Origin: Natronomonas salina
Lineage (GTDB): Archaea > Halobacteriota > Halobacteria > Halobacteriales > Haloarculaceae
Reading direction: 5' to 3'
DNA: 64,000 nucleotides
Assembly: GCF_013391105.1 (NCBI RefSeq)
Contig: NZ_CP058335.1
Span: forward strand, 2,666,001-2,730,000
This document shows positions 8,408 through 43,240 of this stretch, piece by piece. The first letter of the stretch is position 1, and every line of letters starts with the position of its first letter. Position numbers and translations under genes: made by a program. The notes beneath the pieces are model-generated. The model was given only the letters and a program-made list of their open reading frames with translations, searched no databases and had not been told where the DNA came from.

Positions 8408-10169
8408 TGGACGACCCCGACGTCGTCGTCATCGGCGCGGGCGGTGACGGACCGGCCGCCGCGACCCGCCTCGCCCGCCAGCACGGGCTCGACGTGCTCG
8501 TCCTCGAGGCCGGCGCGTGGCACGGCAACCAGAAGTGGCCACAGCCGCACGCCGATTCAGGTGGCACCGTGAGTACCGACCCCGACGACCTCGACGGGAA
8601 GCTGATGGACGACCAGATCACCCACCGTGAGGCGGACTCCGGCGACCCCACGGCCGGCTACCTTCGGGTCGGCCCGGCCGACCACTCCCGGGCACCGTGG
8701 TTCCGCGACCTCCACCAGAACGCCTTCATCTGGCAGGTGTCGGCCGTCGGCGGGACGACGACCCACTACTTCGGCAACCACCCCCGGGCCTACCCCTACG
8801 CGATCGACGAGCAGGACCACTGGCCCGACGAGGTCTCCTACGAGGACCTCGTCCCGTACTACCAGCTCAACGAGGAGGTCACGAGCACCCAGCAGGCGCC
8901 GATGACCGCCCGCGAGGAGGTGTTCATCGAGGGCGCGAAGAACGCGGGCTACGACATGCTCGACTCGCTGAACGTCACCGAGACCGGGTGGCGGCCGCAG
9001 GCAAACGCCGTCGAGGTACCCGGTCGGGAGACCTCGAACGGCGAGCCGCTGGACTCCGATTACGACGGCTCGTTCAGCTACGACGACGGCTTCCGGGGCG
9101 ACACGCTCGTCGGCGACCACTTCCAGGGAGCGTCGACGCCCGTCGACGCGCCGGTCCGCGAGAAGTCACGCAAGTCCAGCAACGTCGGCTGGGTGCCGCG
9201 CGGGCTCGACACCAACGAGAACGACGACATGGGCAACGTCGCCGTCCGCCCGAACACCTTCGTCACGAACATCAACACCGACGACAGCCTCGGCGGCTCC
9301 GAGGCGACCGGCGTCGACATCCGCGATACCTGGTCCGGCGACACCGACACCATCGAGGCCGACACCGTCGTCCTGGCGGCGGGCTGCATCGAGTCGCCGC
9401 GGCTGTGGCTCAACTCCGGCCTGCCGGACGACGGCTGGGTCGGCAAGGGGCTCACGACCCACTGGTTCGACTGGGTCGTCGGCGTCTACGACGACGAGAC
9501 GGTCGAGTCGATCAACCCGGAGGTCAAGCACATGGACCCGTACGTCGGCCAGAACTCGGCCGTCCGGTTCGACAAGCCCGGCGTCGGCGGCCTCGAGGAC
9601 ATCGGGATGTCCCCGGGACTGGTCTCCTACGCGGACTACCTGTTCACCGAGGCGGGCTACTCGTTCGACACCCCCGTCGACCCCGACGAGCCGTGGGACA
9701 CCCGCGGCTACGTCGTGGGCAAGGAACTGAAGCGGAAGATGTCCAACTACCGGCAGACGAAGGCCATACTGGTCCTCACCGACGACCTGCCCCACCAGGA
9801 CAACGGCGTCTCGCTGTCGGACAACTTCAGCGACGAACACGGCGCCGTCCCGGACGTCCGCTACTCGCCCCACGAGGAGGACGACCGGCGACGCGACGAA
9901 CTCGCCCGCATCGCGGCGAACATCCACAACGAGGCGGGCGCCTCGCACGTCCACCGCTCGGAGTGGCCGCCGCTACTGTTGCACATGCAGTCGTCGATGC
10001 GGATGGGCAAGGTGCTCGACTTCGCCGGCGAGGCGTACAACGTCGACCGGCTGTTCGTCGCCGACCACTCGGCGCTCTCGAACGGCGTCGGCGGTCCCAC
10101 ACCAACACCGGCCAGGCGAACGCGCTCCGCATCGCCGACCACGTGGGCGACCGGTACTTCAGCCGATAG
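8407..10169 (+). pseudogene. GMC-family FAD oxidoreductase, frameshifted near the C terminus
   Basis: A flavoprotein dehydrogenase of the glucose-methanol-choline family. The FAD-binding Rossmann motif (VVIGAGGDGPAAATRLA, residues 6-22), the flavin-domain block VSAVGGTTTHYFGN (about 110) and VVLAAGCIESPRLWLNSG (about 320) are present. The conserved C-terminal active-site block begins as DHSALSNGVGGP, then the frame is lost; the correct continuation HTNTGQANALRIADHVG is found one frame away and stops at 10169. A single missing C in the CCC at about 10098-10100 restores GGPHTNTGQAN. In the given sequence the frame instead runs on to 10236 with a nonsense tail. It may be a recent mutation or an assembly error. 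Confidence 0.8.
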
Positions 10170-38850: not shown

Positions 38851-38925
38851 GGGCCAATAGCTCAGCTAGGTATGAGCGCTCGGCTGATAACCGGGAGGTC
38901 CTCGGTTCAAATCCGAGTTGGCCCA
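38851..38925 (+). tRNA. tRNA-Ile(GAT)
   Basis: A complete cloverleaf with acceptor stem GGGCCAA/TTGGCCC, D arm GCTC...GAGC, anticodon loop CTGATAA with anticodon GAT, T arm CTCGG-TTCAAAT-CCGAG and discriminator A. CCA is not encoded. Flanking bases GCGCCTAC (38840-38847) and GTAGGCGC (38976-38983) are perfect complements and could form a stem in the precursor. Its 3' half is duplicated at 41513-41544, marking it as an integration site. Confidence 0.96.
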
Positions 38926-38928
38926 CTC
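38898..38928 (+). repeat. att-like tRNA 3' segment, left copy
   Basis: The T arm and acceptor 3' strand of tRNA-Ile plus three bases. The last 22 bases are identical to the copy at 41523-41544; the homology extends left to GTCCTCGG with a one-base insertion in the other copy. Confidence 0.85.
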
Positions 38929-38946
38929 CCGGCCTGGACGGTCTTT

Positions 38947-38983
38947 GGCCGTCCGGCATAGTGGGCTGAACTCCCGTAGGCGC
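38947..38983 (+). repeat. trailer motif, left copy
   Basis: GGCCGTCCGGCATAGTGGGC (38947-38966) is identical to 43058-43077, and AACTCCCGTAGGCGC (38969-38983) is identical at all three sites. Confidence 0.8.
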
Positions 38984-39266
38984 TTAATTTCCGTTGCCCT
39001 AATCTCGGAACAGATGCCACTGTAAGGATTGGGTTCAACCGTATATTCCACGCACCTACTTACCCTCTGTGCCTTTTGATTAGTTAGCTCCACTCAACGA
39101 ATAGCTTAGGGTTGGTCCAGGCGACTCATGCCATCAACATATTAACGAAATTGATTGGTCGGTTATCAGAATACGCTCACTCCATGATATTGGATGGGCT
39201 GTAGGCTTCTTAGAGAAAATATCAAGTTCTCAATAGCCCCTCGATGTAGTAGAGTCCTCCTGTGCT
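38984..39266. other. gene-free left end of the island
   Basis: With the trailer motif this makes about 340 bases after the tRNA with no convincing gene. The sequence is AT-rich and stop-rich in most frames. It could hold recombinase arm sites, but none is evident. Confidence 0.45.
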
Positions 39267-39698
39267 TCACCAGTACTCGGAGGCTCGTATTGATTGATAT
39301 TCCACATCTAATTCGGTGAGACGTTCGTCTAACCAACGGATATCCCCTACTGGGATGTGCCAAGCGTTATCATTATCTCCAAGTGAGTACCGGACATCCA
39401 TCTCAACGTCGATCACCTGAGCAACTGCTGGAATCATCTCGTTCATGAACTGCTTGTACAGCAGGAACTCATATTCGTCCATATCACCTGTGCTTAACCA
39501 GCGGATTGTTGGTGCAAGTCCATCTCCATGCTTGGCGCTGTGGCACTTTCTACAAAGCGGCCCACGGTTACCAGGATGATTTGCGCCACCTACGCCCCGT
39601 GGAACCTGATGGTCGCTATCTATCTTTCTGACCTGGCTTCCATGCCTCCCACAGCATGAACACCGTGTTTTCTCATCAGCTGATCTCCCTTTTGACAT
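39267..39698 (-). CDS. HNH endonuclease-like protein
   Basis: A 143-residue protein with a zinc-ribbon HNH nuclease core in its first 60 residues: CSCC, then SDHQVPRGVGG, NHPGNRGPLC, and C-x-x-C-H in CRKCHSAKHG. These give the paired cysteines for zinc and the His-Asn-His of the beta-beta-alpha-metal site. The C-terminal 85 residues are unassigned (YEFLLYKQFMNEM...). It may nick or cut DNA for mobility or defence of the element. Codon use is AT-richer than the host. It is divergent from the next gene, with their promoters in the 70-base gap. Confidence 0.8.
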   Translation of the reverse strand: MSKGRSADEKTRCSCCGRHGSQVRKIDSDHQVPRGVGGANHPGNRGPLCRKCHSAKHGDGLAPTIRWLSTGDMDEYEFLLYKQFMNEMIPAVAQVIDVEMDVRYSLGDNDNAWHIPVGDIRWLDERLTELDVEYQSIRASEYW

Positions 39699-39769
39699 TG
39701 ATAGATACAGGTACTATTTCGACATCCTTAAGCGTTTTCGCTGTGGACTACACCATACTCCGAGGCAAA

Positions 39770-40339
39770 ATGGTGGATGAAAGCCCTGATGAAACTGAAC
39801 CCTGGAATAGAATCGATAGAGACAGAGGGATACTCACAAAGAGTGATCGAGAGTATTTGCTCGGGAGAAAAGACCTGGATGGGCAAGACGAGCGGAATGC
39901 CAGATATCGAATACGGACACGTTTAAAAGAGTCTTTACTTGACTTAGTCTTGATAGGAGATAAATTCCCGTCAAGGGACATGGACCAGGTCGTTAATGAT
40001 GAGCGACTTTCAAACGAATGGGTTCCCATTATGCTGATTGCACAAGCGAATGCGTTCTTGTACTTCAATGACGAGATCGTTAACCCACCAAGTAAGTTGG
40101 AAGATTGGGTTGAGCGAGCTGTGACCGCAAGACCACCAAAGGCGGGTCCAAGAAAGGAAGAAGGTAAAGTCGGATTAGTGGACATAAATGCATCTGTATC
40201 AATTGAACTTGAAGAAGAACCAATCGACGTTAGGGGGATGATGCCAGATGAATTAGAAAATGAAATGTCAGATGAAGAAATTAGCGAGTGGATTGAGGAA
40301 ACAATAAGGTCGAAGTTCGAAGAAGAAGATTCAAATTAA
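39770..40339 (+). CDS. unknown protein of mobile-element type
   Basis: A 189-residue acidic protein. The N-terminal third has WNRIDRDRGILTKSDREYLLG followed by DERNARYRIRTRL, a motif pair I recall from many haloarchaeal proteins in proviral regions, though I cannot name a function. A middle segment (RDMDQVVNDERLSNEWVPIMLIAQ) is alpha-helical in character; the C terminus is a run of acidic residues. The ATG at 39770 follows an AT-rich stretch. It faces the recombinase gene convergently with only 15 bases between them. Confidence 0.65.
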   Translation: MVDESPDETEPWNRIDRDRGILTKSDREYLLGRKDLDGQDERNARYRIRTRLKESLLDLVLIGDKFPSRDMDQVVNDERLSNEWVPIMLIAQANAFLYFNDEIVNPPSKLEDWVERAVTARPPKAGPRKEEGKVGLVDINASVSIELEEEPIDVRGMMPDELENEMSDEEISEWIEETIRSKFEEEDSN

Positions 40340-40354
40340 GATGATTTACTTTGG

Positions 40355-41380
40355 TTATAGGTCCCGTAAATAATCACGGCGCTGTTCCGCCTTTTCTTCT
40401 TCACTCCGCCGGTCATAGTGCTTCTCCAGAATGTCAAGGCTCACATTCATTCGGTCACCAACAACCGTCTCAGGCACGTCTTCGGAGAGGTGGTGAGTAA
40501 TTGAACCACGTCGAATCGCGTGTGGACTCACACTTGAGGGGCATTTACTGGCCTTGTTAGTCTCCATCGCCTCGCATGAATCTTTCTGGCGGCCATGTGG
40601 ACAATCACCAGTATAGATACAGGGACGACTGATACGATAGATACTATCCCGAAGGGAGCTTTTCGCTGGTCGGCCTGCCGAGCTGGTGAGCAACGGCTTC
40701 CGATCATAATCATCCACGGCCTCGATGCGGTGATATTGGAGATAGGCGTCAAGCACGTCACAGACCTCGGCGTTCAACGAGACTACCCGCTCTCCGTCTT
40801 CCTTGTTCTTCAATCGGGTACCCGTCTCTGGACGATGGCGCAATTCCACTGTTTGATTCTCCGGGTCGTAGTCCGCCACGTCGATGCTGTGAACCGCACC
40901 AATTCGCATCCCGGTGAGCCATAGAACTTCCACCAGGGCGTGCGTTCGGGTACCGAACTCAAACTGTCGTAGGTATTCAATCAGCTTCTCAGCGGCCTCT
41001 GAATCGAGCATAGCATCACGCCGGTCTTCAGTCTTCGATAGCGAGGGAAGCAGAATCTTGTCGTGTAAGCCTTCCTGTACGGCGTCGATGTTCTCGCACC
41101 AATCGATGAAGACACGAAGTGTTGAGAGCTGGGTGACGAGTGTGACGTTATTGAGATCGCCATCGTCTCGCCGCCACATCTTGAATCGCTGAAGATCACG
41201 GCCCGAAAGCTCGTTCAGGTTCTCTATCTCCTCTACTTCTTCACACCAGTGGACGAAGTGCTTTAGGCGATAATGGTGCGCCTGAATCGTACTCTTTGAT
41301 ACTTCGCTTTCCCGCTGTGAAAGGTACATTTCCTTGGCCTCATCTGGACGAATCGGTTCGAGGTTGTTTCCGTTTGACAT
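40355..41380 (-). CDS. tyrosine recombinase (integrase)
   Basis: A 341-residue XerC-like recombinase. The N-terminal SAM-like core-binding domain spans about residues 15-110; the catalytic domain has Arg in WLTGMRIGAVHSID, the HAIRRGSITHHL box with His and Arg, and the nucleophile Tyr in LEKHYDRRSEEE near the end. A cysteine/histidine-rich insert (CIYTGDCPHGRQKDSCEAMETNKASKC) precedes the HxxR box and may bind zinc, a feature of haloarchaeal relatives. It probably catalysed integration at tRNA-Ile, since the gene reads away from the middle att copy 130 bases upstream. The start is the ATG at 41380. Confidence 0.92.
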   Translation of the reverse strand: MSNGNNLEPIRPDEAKEMYLSQRESEVSKSTIQAHHYRLKHFVHWCEEVEEIENLNELSGRDLQRFKMWRRDDGDLNNVTLVTQLSTLRVFIDWCENIDAVQEGLHDKILLPSLSKTEDRRDAMLDSEAAEKLIEYLRQFEFGTRTHALVEVLWLTGMRIGAVHSIDVADYDPENQTVELRHRPETGTRLKNKEDGERVVSLNAEVCDVLDAYLQYHRIEAVDDYDRKPLLTSSAGRPAKSSLRDSIYRISRPCIYTGDCPHGRQKDSCEAMETNKASKCPSSVSPHAIRRGSITHHLSEDVPETVVGDRMNVSLDILEKHYDRRSEEEKAEQRRDYLRDL

Positions 41381-41470
41381 AGTTGTCTTTAGTAGGAAAC
41401 GTGGACGGTGCCTATCCTCATCCAATCCGTTCAGGATGAGCCGTTCGAGATAACCGTGAAGGGCTGTAGA

Positions 41471-41510
41471 GGGCGAGGCTTGTAATCGGGCGGTACAAGC
41501 CTTCTCGCCC
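41471..41510. repeat. long inverted repeat beside the middle att copy
   Basis: GGGCGAGGCTTGTA pairs with TACAAGCC...TCGCCC around ATCGGGCGG, two stacked perfect stems (6 and 8 bp). It lies directly left of the att core at 41513. It could be a recombinase arm-type site or a terminator. A smaller IR, CTCATCC/GGATGAG, lies at 41417-41440. Confidence 0.5.
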
Positions 41511-41512
41511 TC

Positions 41513-41544
41513 GTCCTCGGTCTCAAATCCGAGTTGGCCCACTC
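41513..41544 (+). repeat. att-like tRNA 3' segment, middle copy
   Basis: A partial tRNA-Ile 3' end: 22 identical bases (41523-41544) and further homology leftward with one extra C in the T loop, so it is not a functional tRNA. Confidence 0.85.
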
Positions 41545-41868
41545 GGTTTCCGAACGGTCTTCGGCCGTCGGGAACTGGTGGCCAAACTCCCGTAGGCGCC
41601 TAACTTTCGCCGACACCATTTTTTGATGAGTCCCATCTCTGATGTGGGTTCCGACGGAGACTTCCTATCCCCGTACGGTTCCTACGAACCCCGTAGCTGA
41701 AAGGGTGTGCAGTATGAGTTGCTTCAGCTGCCCCAAGGTAGGACCGCGCGCCGTTCCAACCCCCAATCAATTCTTTGTGTTCGCGTTGCTCCTCTCCGAA
41801 GCGGCGTAAGACCTGATTAGCCCAAATGGATTTATGTTCGCTCAATACACGGTACTGGTATCTCCAAT
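41545..41868. other. gene-free stretch with trailer motif and Doc promoter
   Basis: About 320 bases with no convincing gene. It includes the middle trailer copy AACTCCCGTAGGCGC (41585-41599) and, near the end, GGATTTATGTTC about 30-40 bases before the Doc-like gene, a probable TATA element. A minus-strand frame here (to 41600) has no family features and overlaps the Doc start. Confidence 0.5.
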
Positions 41869-42696
41869 ATGACTCATGGATATCCACATGATGTCCTATA
41901 TCCGACCGTGGATGAGATAGTATCTATACATTCAGATATCGTTGAGGATGATGAAGATGCTACTGTAGGTATTCGCAACGAGGGACAAATTGATTATATC
42001 TTGTCAGCCATTTCGGAGGGTCACTTTGGATGTGTCCCAGAAACTATCCACGAGAAGGCAGCGGAATTATTACGACTTTTAGCGGCGAATCATCCCTTTG
42101 TTGACGGAAACAAACGTACTGCTCTAAACACAACTTGGACGTTCTATGCGATGAATGGGTTGTACTTTGACTACGGAGAGGAAATTAAGGCAATTCTGAA
42201 GCTTTTTGCGGTTATGGAGGAAATGGTGGACTTTGAGGCAGTTGTTAGTTACTTCGACGATATCACCTATTCTTCTGCAGATAGTCGGAGCATCGATCCA
42301 GTTATAGATACTATCCATCTTACGAACTGGTACATTAGTATCGATGATAGGTTTGAAGAAATAATTGATATATTTGATGAGTACGATAGCATAGAGGATG
42401 GGGAATTTGTAGATGAAATCCCTGAAGAGGTATATGAATCGATTGATGGGAAGGAGTTTAGGCAGCTTTTGGTTGAATACGGTAAATTTGGAAAGGAGCT
42501 ATCATCCCTAAAGCAAGAATATGAGGAGGATTTCCCAGACGAAGTATTAGAATCTATTACGGCTCTACTTGACGAATGGAAGGAAGTACGCTCAGTGATT
42601 ATTGAGATGCTGAGCAAATACGACCCCGACTTAGAGGGTGAGATAGCTGAAAACCTCGTAGAAGAGGGGGTTATTGATGAGAACGACGTTAACTGA
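41869..42696 (+). CDS. Doc/Fic-family protein with long acidic C-terminal extension
   Basis: A 275-residue protein. Residues 1-135 form a Fic/Doc domain with the active-site motif NHPFVDGNKRTAL (about residues 75-87); the Lys after Asn resembles Doc, which phosphorylates EF-Tu, rather than the Gly of AMP-transferring Fic enzymes. P1 Doc is only about 126 residues; here about 140 acidic, helix-rich residues (for example SIDDRFEEIIDIFDEYDSIEDGEF) follow and could be a fused antitoxin-like or targeting part. Codons are AT-rich, unlike the host. No antitoxin is evident upstream; a 39-codon ORF follows. Confidence 0.82.
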   Translation: MTHGYPHDVLYPTVDEIVSIHSDIVEDDEDATVGIRNEGQIDYILSAISEGHFGCVPETIHEKAAELLRLLAANHPFVDGNKRTALNTTWTFYAMNGLYFDYGEEIKAILKLFAVMEEMVDFEAVVSYFDDITYSSADSRSIDPVIDTIHLTNWYISIDDRFEEIIDIFDEYDSIEDGEFVDEIPEEVYESIDGKEFRQLLVEYGKFGKELSSLKQEYEEDFPDEVLESITALLDEWKEVRSVIIEMLSKYDPDLEGEIAENLVEEGVIDENDVN

Positions 42697-42774
42697 GTAT
42701 AGATTCGGCCAATTAGGCAGTCACAAACTAATTATGCTAGCAACCTCGTATGGTACACTACCAAGGTGCTCTCT

Positions 42775-42894
42775 ATGATGAAGGCTAAACACCAAAACGA
42801 CGAAGAGAGGACGAGCTTGGTCCGTCTGTTGGCTACTATGGACCGGGAAAGCAGTAATCACAAGAAGATCTACGAAGATCTGAGAGACGAGTAA
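42775..42894 (+). CDS. tiny ORF after the Doc-like gene
   Basis: Thirty-nine residues, MMKAKHQNDEERTSLVRLLATMDRESS... to LRDE, highly charged and predicted helical. An AT-rich CTAATTATG lies about 40 bases upstream and a hairpin CTGTCT/AGACAG (42895-42914) follows immediately. It could be a small antitoxin or a non-functional remnant; no family match is known to me. Confidence 0.35.
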   Translation: MMKAKHQNDEERTSLVRLLATMDRESSNHKKIYEDLRDE

Positions 42895-43240
42895 CTGTCT
42901 CTACTTTTAGACAGCCTCCGATTCGGTTGTGGCTGGCGTTCCGCATCTAGCTGCCTCAGAGATATTACTGACCCTCGCGGTGAGTTCGTACATCTTGCTC
43001 CCCTCGGAGATCAAGGTACTCACCCGGCGACCGTCAGTATTCGTAGTCGTCCCATCAGGCCGTCCGGCATAGTGGGCCAAACTCCCGTAGGCGCCTAACT
43101 TTCCGCGAAATCGAACCCCGGTAGCGGCGCACTTCTCGCCGTTCACGTCCGGCCCCCCTGGACCCCCTGTATTCGGCGGTCAGACTTGCGATTCCGATGA
43201 ACGAGGACAGAACGGAGCCTCGACGAGCGGTGCGCCGGTT
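42895..43240. other. right end of the island, no convincing gene
   Basis: About 345 bases. It begins with a hairpin, contains the right trailer copy, and turns GC-rich after about 43107. A minus-strand frame of 79 codons (to 43146) runs through the trailer copy; it has no family features and is not accepted. Confidence 0.5.
43058..43094 (+). repeat. trailer motif, right copy
   Basis: Shares GGCCGTCCGGCATAGTGGGC with the left copy and AACTCCCGTAGGCGC with all copies. As in the middle copy it continues as CTAACTTT, giving the palindrome TAGGCGCCTA. No tRNA fragment precedes it. Confidence 0.8.

Follow-up and report, generated by a model that had tools for sequence, protein, structure and literature searches.

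Behind the tRNA-Ile(GAT) gene of the haloarchaeon Natronomonas salina (NZ_CP058335.1) lies a short AT-rich island bearing a tyrosine integrase and a repeat of the tRNA 3' end, and the question that this locus raises is how many mobile elements have entered the gene, of what kind and in which order. The locus was analyzed within a window of 64,000 nt, the whole stretch of DNA under study, and all coordinates are positions in that window. The evidence is best read as two stacked insertions at tRNA-Ile(GAT), a younger and intact mini-element (module A) adjoining the tRNA and an older, decayed remnant (module B) beyond it, a reading to which we assign a probability of roughly 0.8. A first-pass annotation of the same DNA had described a composite tRNA-Ile island with module A as a recombinase-bearing insertion, and this description held, as did its coordinates and gene list apart from slightly changed gene starts. 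We infer the order of events, present activity, excision, transfer route and toxin-antitoxin function.

The case begins with the tRNA gene itself. The 22-bp core TCAAATCCGAGTTGGCCCACTC, composed of the tRNA-Ile 3' end and the two following bases, occurs with 0 mismatches at both the left and the right attachment (att) site (attL and attR; Table 1), a repeat of which zero are expected by chance (100 shuffles). The likeness of attR to the tRNA continues into the T-stem with one added base at 41522 (CTCGGTcTCAAAT versus CTCGGTTCAAAT), in agreement with the first-pass annotation, which had reported a 22-base repeat extended with one indel. A trailer motif, AACTCCCGTAGGCGC, is present in exact copies at 38969, 41585 and 43080; three matches at up to 2 mismatches were reached by no shuffle, and its first 14 bases have exactly three copies in the 3.75-Mb genome, all three in the island. 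The GC content of ~0.70 in the flanks gives way to 0.40-0.55 between ~38,930 and ~43,060. The core, the three trailers and the AT-rich composition reported earlier were thus all recovered, the qualification being that the trailer copy at 43058-43108 has no recognizable tRNA 3' end before it. Module A spans 38929-41544 (2616 bp) and module B spans 41545-43057.

Table 1. Features of the tRNA-Ile(GAT) island, in window coordinates
Feature	Position	Strand	Basis or remark
tRNA-Ile(GAT), integration target, 3' end = attL	38851-38926	+	ARAGORN and Rfam tRNA
attL core, 22 bp, identical to attR	38907-38928	+	Exact repeat
T1, element-borne trailer (hairpin and AACTCCCGTAGGCGC) with conserved left end of A	38927-39056	+	Comparison with G002 and G247
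HNH endonuclease-domain protein, 143 aa, cargo of A	39267-39698	-	PF01844, E 2.9e-7
189-aa protein, cargo of A	39770-40339	+	Best start 39770
SNJ2-family tyrosine integrase, 341 aa	40355-41380	-	PF00589 and PF02899
Inverted repeat between integrase start and attR	41469-41512	.	Sequence, attR flanks
attR core of module A	41523-41544	+	Exact repeat
T2, trailer with decayed left end (promoter-like block, start of small Cys-containing ORF)	41542-41740	+	Matches to G018 and G005
Doc/Fic toxin-like protein, 275 aa, motif HPFVDGNKR	41869-42696	+	TIGR01550, 63.2 bits (cut-off 38.65); PF02661
Conserved Doc partner, 42 aa, likely antitoxin, C-terminus NHKKIYEDLRDE	42766-42894	+	Recurrence at doc loci
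T3, 3' half of third trailer, right island edge, chromosome-like from here	43058-43105	+	Motif, GC recovery

Module A has the arrangement by which tRNA-integrated elements are recognized: the tRNA 3' end is repeated directly at the far boundary, and an integrase lies in between. As judged from its sequence, it appears to be a complete integrative element made up of the integrase, the HNH protein, the 189-aa protein, attL and attR. Its proteins include no viral, conjugative or recognized replication genes according to Pfam, PHROGs and NCBIfam. Elsewhere in 146 genomes the HNH protein is matched once, at G153:C1:298784-299170 within a 9.1-kb tRNA-Ile unit of genome G153; in the collections searched it has 0 relatives in phages and 1 in plasmids. 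The 189-aa protein has no match in Pfam, PADLOC, NCBIfam or PHROGs; its N-terminal region is shared by many hypothetical proteins of haloarchaea, with matches in 49 of 99 genomes. Related genomes, which the first-pass annotation had proposed as a check, bear out an insertion: in none of the other genus-level genomes compared was this gene set found at the tRNA-Ile locus.

Integrases of the SNJ2 family are widespread among haloarchaea (PMC8371274, PMC5867852); a protein is counted in the family if 60% of its length can be aligned to a representative with an identity of 30% or more (PMC8371274). The integrase of module A shares 43.9% identity with the SNJ2 integrase over 99% of the query (44-46% to SNJ2 and HRPV-9) and combines a SAM-like N-terminal domain with a Phage_integrase domain, PF02899 and PF00589 both lying above cut-off. 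Only distant relatives were present in the virus collection. Residues R159, H287, R290 and Y322 are invariant in our alignment (A1); from general knowledge of tyrosine recombinases, we take them to be the catalytic Arg, the HxxR motif and the Tyr. Hairpins occupy the place between integrase start and attR in several other family members as well, and in the window the inverted repeat found there is possibly an arm site of the integrase.

Relatives of this integrase were sought in 392 haloarchaeal genomes and a named genome collection. At 66% identity or more, they mark seven delimited units, the window's included, all at tRNA-Ile(GAT) and all with the integrase on the strand opposite the tRNA and starting ~120-140 bp inside attR. 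The units come from five haloarchaeal genera in three families and span 1.8-3.0 kb: 1774 bp in Halopenitus malekzadehii (G247), 1852 bp in G002, 1911 bp in Natronosalvus hydrolyticus (G319), 1937 bp in G210, 2616 bp in the window, 2802 bp in G083 and 3017 bp in Halolamina pelagica (G238). The G002 element occupies the same tRNA and encodes an integrase 89% identical to the window's, with other cargo. In a phylogenetic tree the seven rows from tRNA-Ile cluster together (100/99, 200/200 bootstrap trees) against labelled integrases from tRNA-Phe, tRNA-Arg and tRNA-Tyr and from two 9-kb tRNA-Ile elements. The complete clade has nine rows, the two additional ones (G021 and G270) having no resolved unit: in G021 the tRNA-Ile lies ~17 kb off on the same contig and just a decayed core is found beside the integrase, and in G270 the single tRNA-Ile core match is on a contig other than the integrase's. 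Integrase dN/dS is 0.033 against G002, where dS approaches saturation, and lies at 0.06-0.10 for wider pairs, values that indicate strong purifying selection. A higher dS in the integrase than in FxsA (1.8 versus 0.56) was set aside as proof of transfer, as base composition differs.

These data bear on the suggestion that module A is a provirus or plasmid worn down by deletion, with a retained integrase and no adaptation to small size. Related SNJ2-type integrases do exist in pleolipoviruses and larger elements, and a homologue of the HNH gene lies near the corresponding end of the 9.1-kb unit of G153. However, all seven delimited members, from five genera, are at most 3.0 kb and retain intact integrases under purifying selection, and independent wear would seldom be expected to leave an integrase together with both att sites. 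In clade member G021 the integrase does lie far from the tRNA, without intact cores, yet on balance we regard a worn provirus or plasmid as improbable.

The comparison of members further revealed conserved ends around exchanged contents. The window and G002 have 206 bp in common at the left, tRNA included (83.5% identity; G247 is similar), and 1254 bp at the right, and between these ends lie the HNH and 189-aa genes in the window versus a gene for a 143-aa membrane-type protein in G002. Likewise, G238 and G210 have 235 bp (86%) in common at the left and 1166 bp (89.8%) at the right, with unrelated middles encoding a 467-aa lipoprotein-like protein versus a 163-aa protein, and G002, G210 and G319, three elements from three genera, encode related small membrane-type proteins. 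The family thus keeps a left end (core and trailer, ~70-160 bp past the tRNA) and a right end (integrase and attR, ~1.0-1.25 kb), between which genes are exchanged among members. Shared ends, swapped cargo and purifying selection on the integrase together are evidence, at the level of sequence, of a mobile family kept functional. We propose tentatively, at somewhat less than even odds, that its members are minimal cassettes specific to haloarchaeal tRNA-Ile(GAT) whose fixed ends and exchanged middles turn them into chromosomal vehicles for passenger genes (nuclease, membrane-protein or other) and which lack genes for their own replication or transfer; at integration they would replace both the trailer and the tRNA 3' end.

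How such a cassette might integrate can be read from its ends. In the window and in G002, G247, G083 and G238, the T-stem sequence of attR is one base longer than that of the tRNA, the addition standing immediately left of the core. Since the additional base, 41522 in the window, was not passed on to the tRNA, the crossover must fall inside the identical 22-bp block. Among the members this base (window 41513-41523) stands at two different positions; perhaps it keeps attR from becoming a new target. Recombination of the 22-bp core in the tRNA 3' end by the SNJ2-family integrase would yield a tRNA with the element's identical 3' end followed by the element's trailer, and the old trailer would end up beyond attR. 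By this standard mechanism, the order of trailers would serve as a record of insertions, the newest adjoining the tRNA. As no recognizable replication, virion or transfer protein is encoded, passage between cells would presumably take place as excised circles or as chromosomal DNA, via mating, vesicles or a helper.

In most sampled genomes with the site, the core is present as a single copy; this survey covered the 392 genomes for exact cores only, and decayed copies are undercounted. An apparent second core in G004 seems to be a contig overlap, and second cores ~100-160 bp apart in many genomes were excluded as too close to represent insertions, most likely being tandem tRNA-Ile copies. Such closely spaced tRNA-Ile 3' ends, probably tandem genes, occur two to three times in G177, G285, G355, G216 and many other genomes of the f7 family. 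Related integrases start immediately next to a tRNA-Leu(CAA) gene, a different target and integrase arrangement, at G209:C6 (L109) 8802-8892 and G186:C58 (L113) 9817-9906. Separately, a 2156-bp tRNA-Ile unit of G064 (L177, 3651-5825) has intact cores and encodes a 162-aa protein bearing a Tat-like signal, and no integrase ORF was found in it.

The trailers require separate treatment. In most genomes of the genus, a hairpin followed by ACTCCC(C/G) and AATTTC blocks lies 3' of tRNA-Ile, with the motif starting ~43 bases beyond the tRNA end, and the same trailer stands behind tRNA-Ile in some other genera, in genomes with a single core copy. The trailer is accordingly a conserved feature across several haloarchaeal genera (38927-38997 and relatives L002-L030, alignment A2). 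It falls within no family of Rfam, where the tRNA proper was the only match and an antisense sub-threshold match was not used. A hand-set hairpin shows 17 cells changed on both sides with pairing kept, compared with 8.3 in shuffled controls; RNAalifold returned no consensus structure, probably through alignment register, and the hand-set hairpin did better. The trailer is possibly a terminator, a processing signal or a small RNA. Because genomes with single-copy tRNA-Ile loci carry the motif too, the motif alone was ruled out as an insertion scar.

Could all of the repeats then be nothing but conserved tRNA trailers, acting perhaps as a terminator or a trailer RNA, that were duplicated with no mobile element involved? 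The breadth of trailer conservation and the excess of compensatory changes over shuffles speak in favor of this explanation, and the first-pass annotation had named a merely conserved trailer as one finding that would overturn an insertion. The motif alone is indeed conserved at tRNA-Ile loci, but the core itself, the 22-bp tRNA end, is duplicated around an integrase, a layout repeated in six other genomes with other cargo. Duplication of trailers alone is already contradicted for module A and is hardly credible for the island as a whole. Rather, the mini-elements bring their own version of the trailer, which replaces that of the host upon integration.

With the trailers understood in this way, the 128 bp behind each one was compared with relatives. 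For the sequence behind T1 the top match is the left end in G002 (z 7.6); that behind T2 is most like the left ends of other, larger tRNA-Ile elements, in G018 (z 8.9) and G005 (z 7.6); and that behind T3 comes closest, though weakly, to the chromosomal relatives G003 and G006 (z ~4.5). A promoter-like block occupies the T2-equivalent place in G005, G016, G018 and G027; it is followed by a small Cys-rich ORF in G005 and G016, and in G005, G016 and G027 by a protein that, read by eye rather than by profile, looks SWIM-like. The block of G016 stands at the start of a 13.3-kb element that has a different integrase of its own and a remnant of attR. Matches of T2 to several relatives had suggested that it might be untouched chromosome, but this possibility was set aside, as its best post-trailer matches are left ends of other elements and carry the promoter-like block. 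The differing affinities of the three post-trailer sequences indicate two insertion events with moderate strength. T1 would then come from module A, T2 from an older element of another class and T3 probably from the chromosome, and module B is likely what is left of this older element after a presumed deletion of the integrase and right att site.

The tandem accretion proposed in the first-pass annotation therefore stands as to two insertions, but not as to module B being a recombinase-free satellite that entered tRNA-Ile through A's integrase. Module B does lack an integrase, three trailers imply a second event, and the G064 unit, integrase-less with both cores intact, shows that the idea is possible in general. 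Yet module B is not flanked by intact cores: its right core is not recognizable, its left end matches the class of G005 and G018 and not A's family, and the related element in G016 has its own integrase. Since the right core is missing and the left end belongs to another class, the satellite origin is not supported, and we consider it very improbable. At the expected place before T3, the best ungapped core match is 11/19, a score reached by 0.2-0.4% of 19-mers and not compelling given the freedom of placement; a decayed core there was rejected, the local alignment not being significant.

A further alternative dispenses with site-specific insertion and decay for module B, which would instead have arrived by homologous recombination of a fragment with another strain's tRNA-Ile flank. 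T3 starts mid-hairpin and has 20 bases in common with T1 and 27 with T2, as might follow from such an exchange. The flanks of T2 and T3 match different sources, as sequential insertion predicts, an argument that is not decisive, and we rate the exchange as unlikely. Several observations also weigh against two stacked insertions. The comparison genomes include no conspecific strain, the nearest locus being 77% identical, and a true empty site was not seen. The assignment of B comes from an alignment of ~120 bp and half a trailer, with a right att site that is not recognizable. Finally, the downstream genes are not conserved in the genus, and the original right flank is therefore not proven.

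What module B still encodes may bear on its survival. The Doc protein carries the toxin domain and a C-terminal extension, and the adjacent partner gene follows it in toxin-first order, without demonstrated homology to Phd. A short ORF ending in IYxxLxxE follows doc at 17 of 20 haloarchaeal doc loci, the window included, compared with 0 in a reverse-strand control, and because of this recurrence the 42-aa ORF is not spurious. The two genes are likely a toxin-antitoxin pair, as judged from domain content and gene order, and such a pair could explain the retention of the remnant. The doc partner ORFs (42766-42894, L082-L100) constitute a candidate antitoxin family absent from the libraries searched.

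No published description of tRNA-Ile mini-elements was found in the open-access literature searched, which did not cover the principal paper on SNJ2 integrases (Wang et al. 2018, cited in PMC8371274). The present analysis adds an integrase clade that uses a single target and whose elements are very small, with ends conserved and contents exchanged. These tiny archaeal elements form a defined, comparable set whose ends are known, which makes the smallest self-sufficient integration unit testable, and also the manner in which cargo is exchanged between fixed ends. For the reading of tRNA hotspots, trailers traceable to their source element give access to insertion order.

Among known systems, the pleolipovirus-related proviruses SNJ2, HRPV-9 and HHPV4 have the same integrase family, with PF02899 and PF00589, and likewise target tRNA 3' ends (PMC8371274, PMC5867852). 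These viruses are 15-17 kb, whereas the mini-elements are 1.8-3.0 kb and no virus genes were found in them; SNJ2 uses tRNA-Met with a 13-bp att (PMC5867852, PMC8371274), in contrast to tRNA-Ile with an att of 21-38 bp. The 13.3-kb element of G016 resembles the mini-elements in its tRNA-Ile target, its trailer and an SNJ2-type integrase ~50% identical, but is larger, has its integrase in the opposite orientation and encodes a weakly supported packaging-ATPase-like ORF; its left end has the promoter-like block of G005 and G018, which T2 resembles. G016 (L036, 1475-14900) is also a further case of stacking, as another trailer and promoter-like block come after the element, and some genes there are possibly virus-like. 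In the same size range are the cryptic integrated elements (CIE) of Thaumarchaeota, which go down to 2.6 kb (e.g. NitUzo-E2; PMC6563490) and similarly comprise an integrase with a few unknown genes, target tRNA genes, lack a virus or transfer module and are known to stack (PMC6563490). NitUzo-E2, however, has a wHTH protein proposed to start replication (PMC6563490), whereas the mini-elements, down to 1.77 kb, have little beyond the integrase and keep conserved ends while swapping the middle across genera.

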